Part shown: positions 5,222 to 21,386 of the stretch, piece after piece
How positions within the stretch are numbered: position 1 is the stretch's first letter
Layout of the letters: each line of letters starts with the position of its first letter
DNA from: a virus
DNA: 21,386 nucleotides
Direction: 5' to 3' (one strand)
IMG/VR virus record: IMGVR_UViG_3300035187_001640
Coordinates: 1-21,386 of that record
Notes under the pieces: generated by a model
Databases searched by the model: none
Seen by the model: the letters and a program-made list of their open reading frames with translations, nothing else
What the model was told of the DNA's origin: nothing
Position numbers and translations under genes: made by a program

Positions 5222-5399
5222 CATCGAGTGCATCGATGCCATCAAGGCGATGCTGACACCCGATGAGTGGAGGGGGTTTCTGAAGGGGACGGCAGTGGCG
5301 TATCTCTGGAGGCTCGGGCACAAGGATGCCATCGAGCAGGATGCCAAGAAGACGCTGTGGTATGTCTCTTGGCTTGCGAACAAGGACCCGAGGGGATAA
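5058..5399 (+). CDS. DUF3310 family protein
   Basis: 113 aa. ATG 5058 was chosen because GGAGG (5044-5048) lies 9 nt upstream; in-frame ATG 5052 is only 3 nt from it. The DUF3310 domain occupies about residues 45-110: VNPSHYKKGDIECIDAIKAM, then LKGTAVAYLWRLGHKD and DAKKTLWYVSWL. DUF3310 is a phage family related in sequence to T7 gp1.7, a nucleotide kinase in T7; kinase activity here is not established. The first 40 residues are low-complexity and share DNA with the 5042-5221 frame. No in-frame start codon lies nearer the domain, so the overlap appears forced. Confidence 0.82.
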   Translation: MPSNSTSPLSASEVEALLAEIKSADRESTTSEWQSSATPSERSDPVNPSHYKKGDIECIDAIKAMLTPDEWRGFLKGTAVAYLWRLGHKDAIEQDAKKTLWYVSWLANKDPRG

Positions 5400-5446: not shown

Positions 5447-5473
5447 GCCCCGGCTTCGTGCCGGGGCTTTTTT
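5447..5473 (+). terminator. Rho-independent terminator ending the plus-strand operon
   Basis: Left arm GCCCCGGC (5447-5454), loop TTCGT, right arm GCCGGGGC (5460-5467) and six T residues (5468-5473): a textbook intrinsic terminator for plus-strand transcription. It sits 48 nt after the DUF3310 stop. The last two T residues are part of the minus-strand PrimPol stop codon (5472-5474), so the two convergent units are packed end to end. Read on the minus strand the hairpin is not followed by a T-run, so it should work in one direction only. Confidence 0.92.
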
Positions 5474-8549: not shown

Positions 8550-8933
8550 ATGAAAACTGAAATTGAAATTGCAGAAGAGTTGTTTACAGCAAAGATCGAA
8601 GAGAAGAAGGCTACCGAAAAGCGAGTAGCCCTCGAGGAAGAGTTGATCGCTCTTCTCGGTTCAAGAGAGGAAGGTTCCCAGACCCATCAGGTCGGGGCTT
8701 TCAAGATCACCATCACTGGCAAGCTCAACCGCAAGATTGATTGGGACATCTTCGATGCAAAGATTGCAACGAAGATTCCCGAGAGTCTGCATCCTGTGAA
8801 GATGAAGCGCGAGCTTGACGATGCTGGGGTCAAGTACCTTTCCAACAACGAGCCGCAGTTCTACAAGATCCTCTCTGCTGCACTCACCGTCAAACCCGCC
8901 AAGACCGCAGTAACCATTGTCCAAGGAGTTTAA
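8550..8933 (+). CDS. Conserved coiled-coil protein preceding the Sak4-like gene
   Basis: 127 aa. ATG 8550 was chosen after AAGGAAA; an open frame continues upstream only because it runs antisense over the HTH gene. Residues 1-40 are a highly charged helix (EIEIAEELFTAKIEEKKATE), probably a coiled coil. Residues 45-80 carry a beta-rich block (THQVGAFKITITGKLNRKID). The C-terminal half includes SLHPVKMKRELDDAGVKYLS and FYKILSAALTVKPAKTAV. The last pattern resembles short proteins that commonly precede Sak4/AAA_24 genes in phages (possibly the DUF7173 group, not verified). It is the first gene of the recombination operon. Activity unknown. Confidence 0.78.
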   Translation: MKTEIEIAEELFTAKIEEKKATEKRVALEEELIALLGSREEGSQTHQVGAFKITITGKLNRKIDWDIFDAKIATKIPESLHPVKMKRELDDAGVKYLSNNEPQFYKILSAALTVKPAKTAVTIVQGV

Positions 8934-8937
8934 TGAG

Positions 8938-9702
8938 ATGGCGATATCACTGAGTAGTTTGAGGAAGACAGGCGTTGCCCGTCCGCCACGCATCGTGGTG
9001 TACGGCACGCACGGCATCGGCAAGTCCACGTTCGCGGCGCAAGCCCCGAAGCCGGTGTTCATCCAGACCGAAGAGGGCTTGGATGCAATCAACGTGGATG
9101 CGTTCCCGCGATGTCAGAAGTTTGAAGACATCATGGAGTGCATCAGCGCCCTGGCGTCGGAGTCGCATGAGTTTGGCACCGTGGTGCTTGACTCTGCGGA
9201 CTGGGCCGAGCAGTTGATCCACAAGAAGGTTGCCGAAGATAACAACGTCAAGACCATCGACGCCATCGGCTACGGTCGCGGCTACAAGGCTGCGTCGGAT
9301 TACTGGCGGCAGATTCTTGATGCGTTTGATTACTTGCGCAACGAGCAGGGGATGCAGGTGATCGTACTCGCTCACACGCAAGTGAAGCGTTTCGATGACC
9401 CACTCGCTGACCCGTATGACCGCTATCAGTTGGACCTGCATCACGGCAGTTCCAGCCTGATCTCGGAGTGGTGCGACATTCTGATGTTTGCGAACCAGCA
9501 GTACTCGACTGTCAAGAGTGATGTGGGTTTCAACCAGAAGATCACTCGCGCTGTGGGTAACGGTAACCGGGTGCTGTACACCCAAGAGCGTCCGGGTTGG
9601 CAGGCGAAGTCTCGCTGGCCGCTGCCCGACATGCTCCCGCTTGAGTATCAAAAGTTTGCCGATGCACTGGGCACGGCAATGAACAACGTCACTGGAGGTT
9701 AA
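8938..9702 (+). CDS. Sak4-like RecA-fold ATPase (AAA_24 family)
   Basis: 254 aa. ATG 8938 lies 9 nt after AAGGAG (8923-8928), which sits in the 3' end of the preceding gene. Walker A is GTHGIGKST (23-31), Walker B is TVVLDSAD (81-88), and a sensor strand VIVLAHTQVKRF (141-152) follows. The order matches the AAA_24/Sak4 group, single-strand annealing proteins with a RecA-like core. They are usually encoded next to an SSB-like partner, and here a DUF669 gene begins 5 nt after the stop. The predicted role is recombination-dependent replication and repair of phage DNA. Confidence 0.88.
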   Translation: MAISLSSLRKTGVARPPRIVVYGTHGIGKSTFAAQAPKPVFIQTEEGLDAINVDAFPRCQKFEDIMECISALASESHEFGTVVLDSADWAEQLIHKKVAEDNNVKTIDAIGYGRGYKAASDYWRQILDAFDYLRNEQGMQVIVLAHTQVKRFDDPLADPYDRYQLDLHHGSSSLISEWCDILMFANQQYSTVKSDVGFNQKITRAVGNGNRVLYTQERPGWQAKSRWPLPDMLPLEYQKFADALGTAMNNVTGG

Positions 9703-9707
9703 TTAAA

Positions 9708-10193
9708 ATGGCTAAGGTAAGTTTCAACGTAGCAGACGCAGGCGATCTCACTCAGAACACCCGCGAGATTCTGCCAGCTGGGGACTACACGATGCAGGTC
9801 GTGCAGTCGGATCTTCGCGACACGAAGGCAGGCGACGGCCAGTACATCTGGCTGGAGTTTGAGGTGATGGGCCCGAAGTACGCGGGCAGTCGATTCTGGG
9901 AGCGTCTCAATCTCTTCAACAAGAGCGAGGCGACTGTCAAGATCGCGAAGAAGACCTTGGGCAACATCTGCAACGCGGTTGGCCTGTCCGTGTTTGAGGA
10001 CACCGAGCAGTTGCATTTCAAGCCGATGAAGGTCACTATTACCCACAAGGAGAACAAGATGGGTGGTCTGGACGCACGCGCTGCGTACTACCCCTTGAGC
10101 GGGACCGCTCCCGCAGCCGCTGCTCCTCAGGCTGCTCCTGTTGCCACTGCCTCGGCCGCTGCGCCGAAGCCGTGGGAACGTCACAAGAAGTAA
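9708..10193 (+). CDS. DUF669 protein, SSB-like partner of the annealing ATPase
   Basis: 161 aa; GGAGG at 9694-9698 is 9 nt before the ATG. The DUF669 core (about 1-125) is seen in ILPAGDYTMQVVQSDLRDTK, YIWLEFEVMGPKYAGSRFWE and KIAKKTLGNICNAVGL. The family is predicted to have an OB-like fold and occurs beside Sak- or Erf-type recombinases, where it probably binds single-stranded DNA. Residues 130-155 are an Ala/Pro-rich linker. The tail PWERHKK is basic rather than the acidic tip of bacterial SSB, so it should not recruit host SSB partners in the usual way. Confidence 0.87.
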   Translation: MAKVSFNVADAGDLTQNTREILPAGDYTMQVVQSDLRDTKAGDGQYIWLEFEVMGPKYAGSRFWERLNLFNKSEATVKIAKKTLGNICNAVGLSVFEDTEQLHFKPMKVTITHKENKMGGLDARAAYYPLSGTAPAAAAPQAAPVATASAAAPKPWERHKK

Positions 10194-10199
10194 CACAAA

Positions 10200-10282
10200 G
10201 AGGCGCGGCATCCGGATAGCAACTCCCCCGTTGCTAAATTGCCACCCACCTGCCGGATGTCGCGCCTCCCCTTGGAGGAGAA
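10200..10282 (+). promoter_or_regulatory. Structured RNA leader before the nuclease gene, with possible SD switch
   Basis: A 16-bp stem is formed by GAGGCGCGGCATCCGG (10200-10215) and CCGGATGTCGCGCCTC (10253-10268); the only non-Watson-Crick pair is one G-U. Inside it is a second hairpin, TAGCAAC (10217-10223), loop TCCCCC, GTTGCTA (10230-10236), plus a 16-nt single-stranded stretch. Just downstream, CCTCC (10265-10269) can instead pair with the Shine-Dalgarno GGAGG (10274-10278) across a CCTT loop. The two folds share 10265-10268 and exclude each other. There is no T-run, so this is not a simple terminator. It may control translation or mRNA processing of the nuclease gene. Confidence 0.72.
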
Positions 10283-11233
10283 ATGGTCAAGATTCCAGAC
10301 ACTGAAGATCTCACGTTGCGCGCTGTAGACGCTGCGATGGAATCTTTGCAAGAAAATAGTCCACGCGGATACCTTGGTGCATCTGCTGTGGGAGACCCTT
10401 GTGAGCGGAAGTTATGGTTTAACTTTCGCTGGGTCAGGCGAGGCTTTATCGAAGCCGGTGGGCTGCGACGAATCAATGATGGACATCGGGGCGAACAGGT
10501 AGTCGCAGACATGCTTCGCCTTGTGCCTGGCGTTAATCTTTCCACGGAAAAGGAACCCGGTGCCCAGCATTCTTTTGAGGCAATCGGCGGGCACTTTCGC
10601 GGCAACTGCGACGGGCTTATCGATGGTCTCTTGCAAGACCCGGACGAACTCTACGTTTGGGAATGCAAGGTCATCAACGAGAACAAGTTTAAGAAGTTGC
10701 AGAAGTTGCGCTTCACGGATGAATCCACCGCGCTGAAGAACTGGGACTACGTGTACTACGCGCAGGCTCAGATCTACATGCATTTCTTTGGGACGAAGAA
10801 GCACTACCTTACCGCAGCCTCACCCGGCGTTCGCGATCTGATGAGTGTGTGTACGTTGTACGTACAAGAAGAGGCGGAGATGTTTGTCGAGAAGGCGAAA
10901 CGCGTCATCTTCGCTCCGAAGCCTCCGGGCAAACTGTCGAACGACCCGGCATGGCACGAGTGCAAGTACTGCACCTTTAGTCAGATGTGCCACGGCGACG
11001 ATATGCCGAGACATAAATCGTGCAGGACCTGCTTGCACAGTACACCGCTTCCGACTGGCGGGTGGAAATGTGAGTGGCATAACAAGAGCTTGGATCTTGA
11101 AGTGCAGAAACGAGGCTGCGAACACCACTTGTTTGTTCCCGATCTGATACCGGGAGAGCAGATAAACTCTGGCCCTAACTGGGTTGAGTATCTGATGAGG
11201 GACGGATCGGTATGGACAGACACCGCAGCATAG
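10283..11233 (+). CDS. Cas4-like PD-(D/E)XK nuclease with predicted Fe-S cluster
   Basis: 316 aa; ATG 10283 follows GGAGGAG. The nuclease motifs are D110 in GNCDGLID and E127-C-K129 in LYVWECKVIN, giving D-x16-ExK. Upstream, YLGASAVGDPCERKLWF (30-46) is the Cas4/AddB-like entry motif with C40. Together with C227, C230 and C236 (HECKYCTFSQMCHG) this makes the one-plus-three cysteine arrangement that holds a [4Fe-4S] cluster in Cas4 and AddB. A second cysteine set (C247, C250, C263, C279) follows, probably binding zinc. Position after Sak4/DUF669 suggests end resection for recombination rather than CRISPR adaptation; no array or cas1 is seen. Confidence 0.85.
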   Translation: MVKIPDTEDLTLRAVDAAMESLQENSPRGYLGASAVGDPCERKLWFNFRWVRRGFIEAGGLRRINDGHRGEQVVADMLRLVPGVNLSTEKEPGAQHSFEAIGGHFRGNCDGLIDGLLQDPDELYVWECKVINENKFKKLQKLRFTDESTALKNWDYVYYAQAQIYMHFFGTKKHYLTAASPGVRDLMSVCTLYVQEEAEMFVEKAKRVIFAPKPPGKLSNDPAWHECKYCTFSQMCHGDDMPRHKSCRTCLHSTPLPTGGWKCEWHNKSLDLEVQKRGCEHHLFVPDLIPGEQINSGPNWVEYLMRDGSVWTDTAA

Positions 11234-14654: not shown

Positions 14655-17600
14655 CTACCTGCTTGCGTACTTCCTTAGCAAGAGTTCTTCAGCAAGAGTA
14701 TATCCACCACGAGCCTTTTTGATCCTTTGAGCTTCCATTTGATGAAGCTTTTCGGCGTAGGCACTGGACTCTTTTGGGGTGCTAAAGACACCAAGATGTT
14801 TCCCGGTTTTTAAGTAATGGTCGATGGCTTCTTTATCCGAAACCACACGCCCGTTAACTACCGTTGGTATCAGGACTTCCTTTCCATTGATGTTAACGCC
14901 CATGGATCTTACGGTGCTGTAAGTTCCATCCGCGTTACGAACTGCTGGCAATTTTGAGACATCAATGTTGCCGGGTTCAACCAAGCCGCCCTGAGCCTTT
15001 CCCTCGGGAAACTTAACTCCCAGTTCCTCCAAAACCCGTAGTTCATCACGACTTAATGACTTCTTTATTGCATCAGTCATGAAGGCATCAGGTTTTTCCT
15101 GCATAGCATCCTGACGCGCCTTGGTGTTTGTCTCGGACAGAAGCTTCTTCAGGATCAAACGCTTTTGATGATTGGTCATCTGAGCGTACTGCGGGTCCTG
15201 CACAAACTTAGAGATCACCTCGTTGATGATCGGAGCCGACTTCGATGCAATCAATCGATCCGCAGCCGGGTCGCCCGTACGCTTGAAGATTTCAAACTCT
15301 TTGATCTGAAGCCGGTCCATTTCTTTCTCGGCTTCGTTCTTTGGCGAGATCTGGGTCACACCCGTAACCTGGCGCATACCCGGAGCTTCACGCACCCGAG
15401 GCTGCGGGTTTGTATACGAGAACGACTCTGGTAGTTCACGACCAGCAACCGGAAGCTTGGATGTAATCGGACCCGTTAGCGGCTCCTCGGTAACCCGGCG
15501 AACCTTAGCTTCTTCTGGCTCGAACTCCGCCATGACATCGCGGATCTGCTGGAACGGAATGAAGAATGTACCGGCGTACTCACCAGCCATCTTCGCCAAG
15601 AAGTCTTCGGCTTTCTTTGCACCAACCTCCGGGTCTTCTCGCAACGTGCCAAGCAAGCCGTCAACCAACTGCAAGCCGGTCTTATCAGATCCGATGCCAG
15701 CAACAGCCTCGGTAATATCCGCACCCTTCAGATCGTACAGCGTGCCATCAAGGTTTCGCTTGATGACATCCCCAACAAACAGATACGCAGAGAACGGAGC
15801 ATACGGGCGCATGTCGATGGTCTTGCCATCCTCGCCCTTTAGCTCGTACCACTTCTCGCCTGCGTACTCAGAGTCTCGCAGCGCATAAGCGCCATACAAA
15901 AGACCGGAGCCAGCGAGTGATTTAGACAGCAGCTTGGTATCACCGCCTTTAAGTGCAGCGCGTTCGTTCTTGCTGAGCAAATGCAGCGGACCGAGCGGAC
16001 TGTACTCCGTCATGAACCGCATCGAGTTAACCAAGAATCGCGGGAACGGAATGGCTACCGTTGCAAGCGGAAGGTTATCAATTGCAGTGACGACAGCCTG
16101 CTCGGCTTTAGTCTTCGGTGCATTGGAGAAAGTAAACTCCATCGCATCCGCAACGCCGCGCTGCACGATGTCCTCGGGAATATCACCCATGCGACCCGAC
16201 TTCATCACTTCGTGGAAGTCGAGTCCGCGAGCCTTCATGCCACGCTCAACCGAATCCGCAAAGACGGCGCTACGCATCACGCTATCTTGGAATCGGTTGA
16301 AGATGTTGAGCGCATACACGCCCTTCTCGGCTGCGCCTAGGATGTCGCTTCCTTTTCCGCCGAGTGCAACGCCAGCGTTGTACTGGCGGAACATCTCATC
16401 GTATTCCTTGGGGCGAACTTCCAAGATTTGCTTGGTGAGATCGTACGACTGCTTCGGATTCAAAAGACTGAGAACCTGACCGAAGGCATCACCCGCTGTC
16501 GTCAGCGGCATCTCCGGGTTAACCCGACCCGTAGCCTTCTGGATTCCAAAGTCAATCAGCTTCGTACCGGTATCAAGTATGGATCGCCCCACGCCAACGG
16601 TTGCGTTACGCACCGCTGTTGAAAGCTGGGACACCATCAATCCACGACGCATATCTTCTATGCGTCTGAAGATCCCGCGATCATCAATGATTCCACCCGC
16701 AGCCTGAGTGTTGATGCCATCGACCGCATCTTCTGCTTCGCGCGTGAACTTTCTAAAGTCACTCAGAATCTGCAACGTACGACCGGCCTGCGAGACTTCC
16801 TGAACGTAAGACTGCGAGAACTCTTCTGGCGTCAGGTTGTTCTTCTTCAAGATGTCTACATAGACATCGGGTCTCAAGCGACCTGACTGAAGAAGATTGG
16901 CAACCTGCAAGAACGGCGGGATGCTGGGGTCGATCTTGACCTCGCCAGTCTCCAGCAATTCCTTTGCTGCATTCGTGATGTTGCGCTGCGCAGCGACCGT
17001 GGGCGCTACGCGCTCGCCCGTCTTTACACCGGGGATGACGTTCTCGGGCAGATCACGCGCTGCAATACGCGCAGCTTCTAACTCTGGATCTGCCGACAGT
17101 TCAACCTCAGACTTAACAACTTGCGTGTTGACTTGATCTGCCGACTTCACAATCGGCAAGTCTTTAGCCTTAGGTTTGCGTCCGCGCTTTGGCTTACCGA
17201 CAACTTCCGGCACTGTAGTTGGCGGAGCAGGTGGAGCCGGTGGTTCTGGCGTAACCGCAGGCGGAACATCAGGCGCGCGCTTAGCGCGACCAACCAAAGT
17301 CTTTGCAGCAACGGCTCCGGGGATGACTACCTCGGGACCGAGAACATCTTGTGCAATCGTGCCGGCAACTTCGGAGCCGGTGACTTTTTTGACGCCCTTA
17401 CCAATTAGTTCAGACGGAACAGACAGGACTTCCGCAGCAGGGCGGATAGTTTCCATACCGAGCTTGCCCATCTGGGTGCGCGGTTCGTACGTCATCTTCT
17501 GCTGCGTTTCGCGAATAGCCTTCGCAGCTTCAGGGTCAGACTCGCCCGTTGCTAATCCATAAAGACCGCGAGCATACGACGGAAGCAAACTGGCTACGCC

Positions 17601-17918
17601 CGTTAGCATAGACAGCGCAGGCTCGGTCACGAGAGAAGTCAGACTGAGCGGAGCTGGCTCTTTGCGCGACGGAGCCGGAGCCGCTTCTGGCTCTGGCTTC
17701 GGAGCAATAGTCGGACGCGCAGGCGGAGCCGTTCGTTGCTCACGCATAAAGTCTACGCGCGCAGGCGGAGCAGAAACTTCTGGCTTCTTAAGCTCCGGCT
17801 TTGAAGCGCCGTACTTAGACTTCAGAACGTAGGCTTCTGCATCCGCTTGGGTTGCCCCTTCGGGTGCAGGAACATTCCATTTCTTTCCGTCCGGACCGAT
17901 GACCGTAAAAGTTGGCAT
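14655..17918 (-). CDS. Large phage virion-type protein, 1087 aa (probable internal or ejection protein)
   Basis: ATG 17918 has GAGGA 7 nt upstream. The N-terminus (residues 1-38: FTVIGPDGKKWNVPAPEGAT) resembles a short domain found at the start of many phage internal virion proteins. A long Pro/Ala/Lys-rich low-complexity region follows to about 260. The middle (about 270-860) is helical, with hydrophobic patches such as LTSLVTEPALSMLTGVASLL and LPLATVAIPFPRFLVNSM. The C-terminal module (from about residue 984: NIDVSKLPAVRNADGTYSTV, then GKEVLIPTVVNGRVVSDKEA) recurs at the ends of varied phage virion proteins. A role in the DNA ejection apparatus is inferred. No lytic catalytic motif is visible. 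Confidence 0.72.
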   Translation of the reverse strand: MPTFTVIGPDGKKWNVPAPEGATQADAEAYVLKSKYGASKPELKKPEVSAPPARVDFMREQRTAPPARPTIAPKPEPEAAPAPSRKEPAPLSLTSLVTEPALSMLTGVASLLPSYARGLYGLATGESDPEAAKAIRETQQKMTYEPRTQMGKLGMETIRPAAEVLSVPSELIGKGVKKVTGSEVAGTIAQDVLGPEVVIPGAVAAKTLVGRAKRAPDVPPAVTPEPPAPPAPPTTVPEVVGKPKRGRKPKAKDLPIVKSADQVNTQVVKSEVELSADPELEAARIAARDLPENVIPGVKTGERVAPTVAAQRNITNAAKELLETGEVKIDPSIPPFLQVANLLQSGRLRPDVYVDILKKNNLTPEEFSQSYVQEVSQAGRTLQILSDFRKFTREAEDAVDGINTQAAGGIIDDRGIFRRIEDMRRGLMVSQLSTAVRNATVGVGRSILDTGTKLIDFGIQKATGRVNPEMPLTTAGDAFGQVLSLLNPKQSYDLTKQILEVRPKEYDEMFRQYNAGVALGGKGSDILGAAEKGVYALNIFNRFQDSVMRSAVFADSVERGMKARGLDFHEVMKSGRMGDIPEDIVQRGVADAMEFTFSNAPKTKAEQAVVTAIDNLPLATVAIPFPRFLVNSMRFMTEYSPLGPLHLLSKNERAALKGGDTKLLSKSLAGSGLLYGAYALRDSEYAGEKWYELKGEDGKTIDMRPYAPFSAYLFVGDVIKRNLDGTLYDLKGADITEAVAGIGSDKTGLQLVDGLLGTLREDPEVGAKKAEDFLAKMAGEYAGTFFIPFQQIRDVMAEFEPEEAKVRRVTEEPLTGPITSKLPVAGRELPESFSYTNPQPRVREAPGMRQVTGVTQISPKNEAEKEMDRLQIKEFEIFKRTGDPAADRLIASKSAPIINEVISKFVQDPQYAQMTNHQKRLILKKLLSETNTKARQDAMQEKPDAFMTDAIKKSLSRDELRVLEELGVKFPEGKAQGGLVEPGNIDVSKLPAVRNADGTYSTVRSMGVNINGKEVLIPTVVNGRVVSDKEAIDHYLKTGKHLGVFSTPKESSAYAEKLHQMEAQRIKKARGGYTLAEELLLRKYASR

Positions 17919-18868: not shown

Positions 18869-20266
18869 TTAGCCTCTGCCAAAAAATTTCTTCAAAAGAT
18901 TTAAGAGGTCAGATCCAGACTTACCCTTAAGAATTTCATCAAGGACTTTATATGCATTTGCATATTTTGAAATATCAGTTTGCAGCAGATCTTCATCCGG
19001 AAGTTCTTGCTTGGTGGTGATTTCCGTCTTCGGAATCTGAACTCCGCTAAGAATGCTTGCCAAGAACTTAACGCGTTCTTCTGGATAACCTTCTTGACGC
19101 AAGAAGTCCTCATACGCCAAGTTAAGATTGGCTTGGCGCATGGCACGTTCTTTCTCGCCAACACCGGTAACTGCTTCAGCACCCTTAAGTCCAAGTTCTT
19201 GCTCAGCCTCACCAACACCCAAATATTTTGTTGAAAGATCGCGCAGAGCAGCAGCATCCTCAAGCGACAGCTTGCCCTTGGACTCTGCAATACGAGCAAG
19301 CTGTTCTGCATCTTGCTGTGTAAGCGTGCCCGTGGTCTTGCCAATATCAATCAACCGAGCGGCATCGTCGCTCGTCAACTGACCAGCCTTGGCTCCGATA
19401 TCGGCAACGCGAACACCGCTCTCAAGCAAGCGGTTAAGATCATCAGAGCTCAGCTTGCCGCTAAGACCAGCAGCCTCCAGCAATCGCGAGGCATCTCTGC
19501 CGAAGATTTCCGCAGCCTGACCGTAGCCAGCTTGGAGCGCCTTAGCTTGTTCGCCCAAAACTGATTGCTGAACGTCGCGTAAAGCACGCGAACTAAACTC
19601 ACCCATACGGCTACTACCGGGGCCGACACTGAACTGACCGGCTCCGATGAACTCTTGTCCAATTTCAGGCAGGTACTTTTCCTTGAGCTGACGAACACCA
19701 ATGTCGCCAATCTGCTCCACAACTCCCTGAATGTAGGGACTCATGTATTGCTGAACCATACCGGGGAAGGTAGCGCCAGCGCCTTCCAAGTAAGGCTGAG
19801 CTGCGGCTAGAGAAGATCCAGCACCGGCCTTTTGAATAGCTTCTACGCCAGAGGCGAAGTACGGACTTGCAGCGCCCATACCCGACATAGCCTCGGCTTT
19901 GCCAAGATATGGCTTAGCGGCACCAGCCCCAGAAAGTGCCGATGCCTTGGCAAAATCTCCTGCCGCAGCGCCCATGCCGGTAATTTTCCCGGCTTCTCCA
20001 AGGGTCTCACCGGCCTTACTTAGGAAGGGCTGATAAGCACCCGCAGCCTTTTTGGTTGCTTCAAATCCAGCCTTTTCATCTGGAGTAAATCCAGCGATTC
20101 GAGGACCGGTATACGCAGCATAGGGGCGATCAGCCAGTGCTTGCGCACGAGCTAACATGTCAGTGGTGTACTGGGTATACCACTCTGGAAGTTGAACCGT
20201 GGAAGTTCCAGTCAGGGTAACTGGAGTGGGTGGTTTCCCCTCAAAAAGAAAATCTGTCACGCTCAT
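18869..20266 (-). CDS. Repetitive helical virion-type protein, 465 aa
   Basis: ATG 20266 shares one base with the stop of the gene upstream. Residues 26-65 (QLPEWYTQYTTDMLARAQAL, then YAAYTGPRIAGFTPDEKAG) form a motif I recall from structural proteins of aquatic podovirus-like phages. Two repeat arrays follow. Residues 78-180 hold degenerate Ala/Gly units built on PYL/PFL and GMGAA (for example KPYLGKAEAMSGMGAASPYF). Residues 270-345 hold four units of about 18 residues with consensus G-x-L-S/T-x-x-D-A-x-x-L. The C-terminus is polar with FLASILSGVQIPKTE. No catalytic motif is seen. An internal virion or tail-stalk role is inferred. Confidence 0.7.
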   Translation of the reverse strand: MSVTDFLFEGKPPTPVTLTGTSTVQLPEWYTQYTTDMLARAQALADRPYAAYTGPRIAGFTPDEKAGFEATKKAAGAYQPFLSKAGETLGEAGKITGMGAAAGDFAKASALSGAGAAKPYLGKAEAMSGMGAASPYFASGVEAIQKAGAGSSLAAAQPYLEGAGATFPGMVQQYMSPYIQGVVEQIGDIGVRQLKEKYLPEIGQEFIGAGQFSVGPGSSRMGEFSSRALRDVQQSVLGEQAKALQAGYGQAAEIFGRDASRLLEAAGLSGKLSSDDLNRLLESGVRVADIGAKAGQLTSDDAARLIDIGKTTGTLTQQDAEQLARIAESKGKLSLEDAAALRDLSTKYLGVGEAEQELGLKGAEAVTGVGEKERAMRQANLNLAYEDFLRQEGYPEERVKFLASILSGVQIPKTEITTKQELPDEDLLQTDISKYANAYKVLDEILKGKSGSDLLNLLKKFFGRG

Positions 20267-21386
20267 TAGGCTAACCCTCCGCCCATGTACTTATCGGGCG
20301 ACTTTGCGTCCGGACTAATCTGGCCACGCGATAGGGCACGACCCTTGTGCTTTCGGATATTAGCACGGAACTGATCCATGCGCCGAGCACCCTCCTTGGT
20401 CGATCCGTCCCCCAGCAAAGCCAGCGTTTCTGCATCAATCACGTATTCCCCATCGCTCAACAGAGCCGGAATCTTATCTTCCCGACCGGAACCGGGACCT
20501 GCCACATAACGACTCGTATTGGAGCCTCCCTTGGCATAGCCAGTCAGCCCGCCCGCAGCCATTGGCTTATCTTCACCAGGCGGATTGGCAGGCGGCCCTT
20601 CTGGCTGGGACAGCGGCGGCTGCGTCGGCTTCTCCAACTGCATGGTGTCCTCGAAGAACTTGGCTTCAGGACGAGTGCCATAGGTGTAGTAGTCAATGTC
20701 TGGATTTAACTGCTGACGGGTATAGGTGTACTTCGGCAATGCACCGCCCAGTCCCCCAGTCGGAGCAGTTGGGGTAGTAGTGCCACCACCTTTTCCACCA
20801 GCACCGGCCGCGCCAAGAGCGCCAAGTAACTTGAGCAACTCTTGAAGTTTTGCCCAGTCACTCAGGTAGCCCTTAACCTTATCTAAAGGCGACTCTTCCG
20901 GCGGCATATTAATGTCCGTCGGCTTGTCCGGAATATCAACTGGCGTATCCGTTGGGATATTCGGCGGGGGAATGATTGGCGTGGTTACGGGAGGCTTAGT
21001 TCCTGTAACCGTGACTTCCGGCAAATCTTCTTCCTCTGGAGGCTCAGATAAAGGCGGCTCAAACACGGGCGGTTTTTCCGGAAGGTCAACCGGTGTTTCC
21101 GTCGGAATATCAGGCGTCGTAATAATTGGCGGAATACCCGGCGGTTTGGTTCCCGTAACCGTAACTACCGGAGGCTCTTCTTCCGGTGGGGTTTCTTCAA
21201 CAGGAGGCTCTGCCAGAGGCGGCTCAAACACGGGCGGCGATTCCGGCAGCGTAACTGGAGTTTCCGTCGGAATATCAGGCGTCGTAATAATTGGCGGAAT
21301 ACCCGGCGGTTTGGTTCCCGTAACCGTAACTACCGGAGGCTCTTCTTCCGGTGGGGTTTCTTCAACAGGAGGCTCTGCCAGAGGCG
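20266..21386 (-). CDS. Proline-rich tandem-repeat virion-type protein (5' end outside window)
   Basis: The frame is open from the right edge, giving at least 372 C-terminal residues; no start is seen, and the GTG at 21231 is internal. The first half is made of Pro/Glu/Thr repeats of about 55 residues (for example PPVFEPPLAEPPVEETPPEE, then VVTVTGTKPPGIPPIITTPD). A Gly/Ala hinge (GALGAAGAGGKGGG) leads to a conserved C-terminal domain with RYVAGPGSGREDKIPALLSD, GEYVIDAETLALLGDGS, ARRMDQFRANIRKHKGRAL and SPDAKSPDKYM. That domain recurs in unnamed virion proteins of aquatic phages. The repeats probably form an extended stalk. It is coupled by a 1-nt overlap to the next gene. Confidence 0.75.
   Translation of the reverse strand, partial: PLAEPPVEETPPEEEPPVVTVTGTKPPGIPPIITTPDIPTETPVTLPESPPVFEPPLAEPPVEETPPEEEPPVVTVTGTKPPGIPPIITTPDIPTETPVDLPEKPPVFEPPLSEPPEEEDLPEVTVTGTKPPVTTPIIPPPNIPTDTPVDIPDKPTDINMPPEESPLDKVKGYLSDWAKLQELLKLLGALGAAGAGGKGGGTTTPTAPTGGLGGALPKYTYTRQQLNPDIDYYTYGTRPEAKFFEDTMQLEKPTQPPLSQPEGPPANPPGEDKPMAAGGLTGYAKGGSNTSRYVAGPGSGREDKIPALLSDGEYVIDAETLALLGDGSTKEGARRMDQFRANIRKHKGRALSRGQISPDAKSPDKYMGGGLA
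20923..21386 (-). repeat. 165-bp in-frame tandem repeat array
   Basis: The repeat unit is 165 bp (55 codons) and begins at the PPVFEPPL motif on the minus strand. The copies in the window are a partial edge copy (from 21386 down to 21238), a full copy (21237-21073), and a diverged 150-bp copy (21072-20923) that has lost 5 codons. Bases 21095-21221 and 21260-21386 are identical over 127 nt, so that duplication is very recent or is maintained by recombination. The array continues past the right edge, so the total copy number is unknown. Confidence 0.9.

Follow-up and report, generated by a model that had tools for sequence, protein, structure and literature searches.

A covarying RNA hairpin directly behind the SSB gene of a phage recombination operon, and its candidate role as a cistron boundary

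In the T7 early mRNA, hairpins that are processed by RNase III lie between the phage genes of a single transcript, and in Shine-Dalgarno (SD)-sequestering translational attenuators one segment has two competing partners, an upstream arm and the SD. In E. coli, an exonuclease-blocking hairpin sets polarity after galE (PMC11925234). Among phage proteins, Sak4 is partnered by DUF669, a genuine single-strand DNA-binding protein (SSB), and the DUF669 protein of phage HK620 has been demonstrated to be an SSB (PMC5928155). Here, we describe a hairpin in the gap between a DUF669 gene and the nuclease gene that follows it in a 21,386-nucleotide stretch of viral DNA (IMG/VR record IMGVR_UViG_3300035187_001640), the whole of which is referred to below as the window.

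Gene order and layout of the hairpin

The + strand of the window carries, in this order, genes for DUF7173, Sak4, DUF669, a Cas4-domain exonuclease (the nuclease) and a helicase. The DUF7173 and Sak4 genes overlap and the Sak4 and DUF669 genes are spaced by 5 nt; the gap that holds the hairpin is the break dividing a Sak4-SSB block from a Cas4-helicase block. No sigma-70 promoter was found in this gap by a consensus scan. The features of the region are as follows.

8917-9702, + strand: Sak4-like annealing ATPase (phrog_124, AAA_24)
9708-10193, + strand: DUF669 gene, phage SSB (Pfam PF05037, E 3.6e-15; PHROG SSB families), with its stop codon at 10191-10193
10200-10215, + strand: left arm of the 16-bp stem, GAGGCGCGGCATCCGG (from sequence, fold and covariation)
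10217-10236, + strand: inner 7-bp hairpin TAGCAAC/GTTGCTA, arms 10217-10223 and 10230-10236 (from sequence and fold)
10237-10252, + strand: unpaired C-rich strand on the 3' side, AATTGCCACCCACCTG (from fold and relatives)
10253-10268, + strand: right arm of the 16-bp stem, CCGGATGTCGCGCCTC (from sequence, fold and covariation)
10265-10278, + strand: alternative small hairpin CCTCC-CCTT-GGAGG, which would mask the SD and competes with the base of the long stem
10274-10278, + strand: SD of the nuclease, GGAGG, 4 nt before the ATG
10283-11233, + strand: Cas4-domain exonuclease gene (phrog_1990, E 1.8e-67), with its ATG at 10283

An earlier note on this DNA, made from the sequence alone, had described the 16-bp stem with its nested 7-bp hairpin, a G.U pair at 10208/10260, the CCTCC at 10265-10269 and the SD, all of which are correctly placed. 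The RNA of 10190-10300 is strongly structured, as had been proposed, and folds with an energy of -43.8 kcal/mol (z = -4.6 against dinucleotide shuffles, 0/200 of which fold as well). In this fold the long stem is stacked on a second hairpin across an asymmetric internal loop. The inner 7-bp hairpin differs in both sequence and position between relatives, and the unpaired strand on the 3' side is C-rich in most of them. The note had recognised no riboswitch class, and an Rfam search likewise returned no family at gathering thresholds, with permissive matches in 10150-10320 at chance level, so that a riboswitch or other known RNA family was rejected.

Elsewhere in the window, a textbook intrinsic terminator (GCCCCGGCTTCGTGCCGGGGC, then TTTTTT) lies at 5447-5467 between two convergent genes, whose ends are at 5399 and 5472. 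Two large minus-strand ORFs of 1087 and 465 aa (14655-17918 and 18869-20266) have no Pfam or PHROG match, and the window ends (21038-21386) in a tandem repeat with a 165-nt unit (2.1 copies, 93% matches) that overlaps a minus-strand ORF with weak similarity to tape-measure proteins. A search of genomes for a prophage or host found distant relatives only, at about 35-45% identity, and a DUF669 survey of 274 bacterial genomes gave almost no matches.

Selection on the stem in related phages

IMG/VR supplied 67 relatives of the nuclease, and the stem is present in every one of the 65 that have upstream sequence; relatives lacking any stem, which the earlier note had named as a refutation, did not turn up among them. 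In an alignment of 24 distinct rows made without reference to structure, 9 of the 16 stem pairs show compensatory (two-sided) changes and 96.4% of cells are paired at the true register, as opposed to 38-60% when the register is slid. The covariation score also exceeds that of 500/500 shuffles, but these ignore relatedness, and the slid controls and the count of double-changed pairs therefore weigh more. RNAalifold applied to the alignment yields the identical stem. One-sided changes are nearly all to G.U when read on the sense strand (62 cells, versus 6 for A.C), which is the pattern of a sense-strand RNA and not of a DNA dyad, and the wobble at 10208/10260 itself is retained in 20 of the 24 rows and replaced by A-U in the remainder. 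Together with the compensatory changes, this bears out the suggestion that the element functions as RNA rather than DNA, and from these comparisons we conclude that the stem is a real sense-strand RNA structure under selection.

The arms are 86% identical and the core 94%, compared with 44% for fourfold sites of the nuclease gene and 42% for the loop. Part of this sequence conservation may be due to slow compensatory evolution and the rest may reflect recognition by a protein.

A covariance model of the hairpin finds a single copy per phage record, once in each of 25 related records, and its minus-strand matches are the same palindrome read backwards; a mobile or repeated element was rejected on the basis of this single copy, always behind DUF669. 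At least 80 loci elsewhere in IMG/VR match the pattern and, among the matches listed, two pass the covariance model: L095, which is the contig already underlying L002, and L072, which has the same gene pair. In four related records (G004, G005, G010 and G014), a second TGTCGCGC, the 8-mer of the right arm on the same strand, occurs upstream at a similar distance from the stem, about 3.9 kb; this is possibly a coding coincidence.

Hairpins behind the SSB gene in related and distant phages

Natural gene insertions indicate which of the flanking genes owns the hairpin. A PAPS-reductase-like gene is inserted between DUF669 and Cas4 at three loci (L011:36-918, L012:2117-2999 and L034:2130-2999) and a 73-aa ORF (phrog_8676) at a fourth (L014:2213-2513), although L011 and L012 are near-identical and the independent cases thus number at most three. 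In all four, the stem, together with the small SD hairpin, lies directly behind DUF669 and Cas4 is without a stem. Among the surveyed loci with inserted genes, the mean z is -2.76 in the 80 nt after DUF669 versus -0.45 in the 80 nt before Cas4. Because the stem remains with DUF669 when genes intervene, we assign the element to the 3' end of the DUF669 gene and not to the nuclease leader. The earlier note had taken it primarily as a nuclease leader or switch, a reading that is not supported; unrelated phages also carry hairpins or terminators right after DUF669; in those distant phages, too, the structure is retained with the upstream gene when the downstream genes change. At the inserted-gene loci, the retained stem/SD cassette now precedes and serves the inserted gene, and the fact that different genes occupy the gap between cassette and Cas4 suggests that this gap is a gene-insertion spot.

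The wider distribution was surveyed in 42 representatives (Cas4 clustered at 80% identity), with 46 other same-strand gaps from the same loci, defined by a simple ORF caller, as controls. In the 80 nt past the DUF669 stop, mean z is -3.08, with 74% below -2, versus a mean of -0.33 and 13% below -2 in the control gaps (p = 9e-11). Terminator-like hairpins were found in 49/90 DUF669 representatives versus 7-10 in shuffles, and the hairpins of distant phages have no evident sequence in common. Similarly, 18 annotated isolates have a mean z of -2.70 after the SSB gene versus -0.27 after Sak4 (p = 0.001). Textbook terminators follow the SSB gene in coliphages JenP2 and KS_A3, Pseudomonas phage MiCath, Alteromonas phage R7M, Brenneria phage BREN6 and BcepGomr; Mcat29, NP1, AV127 and MW202475 are exceptions to post-SSB structure. 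Five distant phages (L229, L261, L284, L303 and L316) carry a tandem pair about 100 nt past the DUF669 stop, consisting of a short terminator-like hairpin and a further stem that extends as far as the Cas4 SD or close to it.

Taken across unrelated phages, the data suggest that a terminator or hairpin right after the SSB gene is a general solution that has evolved repeatedly; the literature searched makes no mention of such an element at this place.

Interpretation and comparison with known systems

We favour, at a probability of roughly 55%, the reading that the hairpin is the 3' boundary of the SSB cistron in the recombination operon and keeps expression of the nuclease and helicase that follow below that of Sak4-SSB. 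Since unrelated phages often have an ordinary terminator at that spot, the hairpin most likely limits the message that continues into the nuclease. The RNA would fold on transcription, 6 nt past the DUF669 stop, and would leave the message for Sak4 and SSB more abundant than that for the Cas4 exonuclease and helicase; recombination operons of phages presumably require a large amount of SSB and little exonuclease. In most distant phages a leaky intrinsic terminator would do the boundary job, and in the family of the window the task would fall to a stem that is longer and more stable but lacks a proper U-tract, acting via partial termination, as a block to 3'-to-5' exonucleases or as a processing site. 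Because the stem ends at the nuclease SD, its folding would also keep the SD more open. Sequence shows that the structure exists, that it is selected as sense-strand RNA, that it is attached to the SSB gene and that terminator-type elements occupy the same place in many other phages; the message-level effect and its exact mechanism are inferred.

Several observations count against a boundary. A GC-rich hairpin lies immediately 3' of the gene, as in an intrinsic terminator, and many distant phages add the U-tract, but the family of the window does not: the 8 nt that follow the stem contain 2 T in the window and 2-5 in the family. A terminator scan gave no match at the hairpin site, and the survey of terminator-like hairpins found no genuine one in the family. 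With so few T and a large apical region, the hairpin of the window family is itself not an intrinsic terminator. The conservation of arms and core is also something that a plain roadblock does not need, and there is little space between stem and SD, the alternative pairing being available in every member.

This last arrangement would be the basis of a translational switch, in which the CCUC at the end of the right arm pairs either with the left arm, leaving the SD open, or with the SD, masking it; a trigger such as a ribosome finishing DUF669 would open the stem and reduce nuclease translation. We regard the switch as unlikely. The mutually exclusive pairing proposed in the earlier note holds up insofar as the SD hairpin can form in all members and, in modelling, blocking or removing the left arm takes the median SD accessibility from 0.32 down to 0.08-0.10. 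The drop exceeds that for stems with permuted pairs (0.169 versus 0.093, range 0.056-0.133). The stem and SD hairpin are moreover kept as one cassette ahead of the inserted genes. The signs of coevolution are weak: there is no SD/anti-SD covariation in a fixed register, the own-versus-swapped advantage is marginal (p = 0.033) and shuffling the pyrimidine stretch gives equally good energies in 23% of cases. Purine/pyrimidine composition accounts for much of the SD complementarity, which follows in part from the fact that left arm and SD are both rich in purines. The stem/SD overlap is mostly absent from distant phages with a hairpin in the same position, the full-length model has the SD already largely paired, and no ligand or leader peptide is evident as a trigger. 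Masking is feasible in all members, selection for it is weakly supported, and an SD switch is a possible extra role of the hairpin.

A site at which RNase III, or another endonuclease, would cut the operon message into SSB and nuclease parts has somewhat lower odds again. The length and stability of the double-stranded stem, its stacking on a second hairpin and the asymmetric internal loop would suit such a site, as would the location exactly at the sizeable DUF669-Cas4 gap. On the other hand, RNase III requires no conserved core, a 16-bp helix is short for a two-turn site, and many distant phages have a short terminator hairpin at the equivalent place.

The conserved GCGCGRCA/TGTCGCGC duplex could instead be recognised by a phage or host protein, for example the DUF669 SSB itself or Sak4, that represses or protects the message. 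The identity of arms and core relative to fourfold sites and loop, and the persistence of the 10208/10260 wobble, favour such a protein-binding RNA, but any strongly selected stem evolving slowly by compensation would also show high identity, and the hairpins of other phages have no sequence in common with those of the window family; we consider it improbable. The same applies to a phage RNA family that would combine a duplex bound by a phage protein with a right-arm toggle masking the next SD, by which the SSB, or ribosome traffic on its gene, would directly set exonuclease synthesis. Finally, a DNA-level element, either operator dyad or replication-origin hairpin, is very improbable despite the near-perfect dyad adjoining replication/recombination genes, and was rejected on the strand asymmetry, seen again in the covariance model (61.5 bits sense versus 34.8 antisense), and on the absence of half-site enrichment in the window (45 matches versus 46 expected).

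Whichever role applies, the window family has a well-supported, selected RNA structure after the SSB gene with sequence conservation beyond the need of a plain terminator, and this combination makes it a good target for studying how phages set SSB:nuclease ratios. Among known systems, the hairpin resembles a leaky intra-operon intrinsic terminator: it follows the SSB stop directly and precedes the Cas4 SD, and distant phages of the same gene order carry a GC hairpin and U-tract there, although the window family differs in its 16-bp stem, large apical region and inadequate U-tract. The competing pairings of one segment resemble those of SD-sequestering attenuators, but here there is no known ligand, leader peptide or trigger, and the coevolution of the SD pairing is weak. 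As with the T7 RNase III hairpins, a long hairpin lies between genes, but the stem of the window family has a conserved core. In galE, the hairpin has an 8-bp stem and lies close to the 3' end of the galE mRNA, an end that falls within galT (PMC11925234). The stem of the window family is longer, covarying and sequence-conserved, unlike that of galE; like it, the stem is stable, lies past a stop codon within an operon and is tied to the upstream gene.
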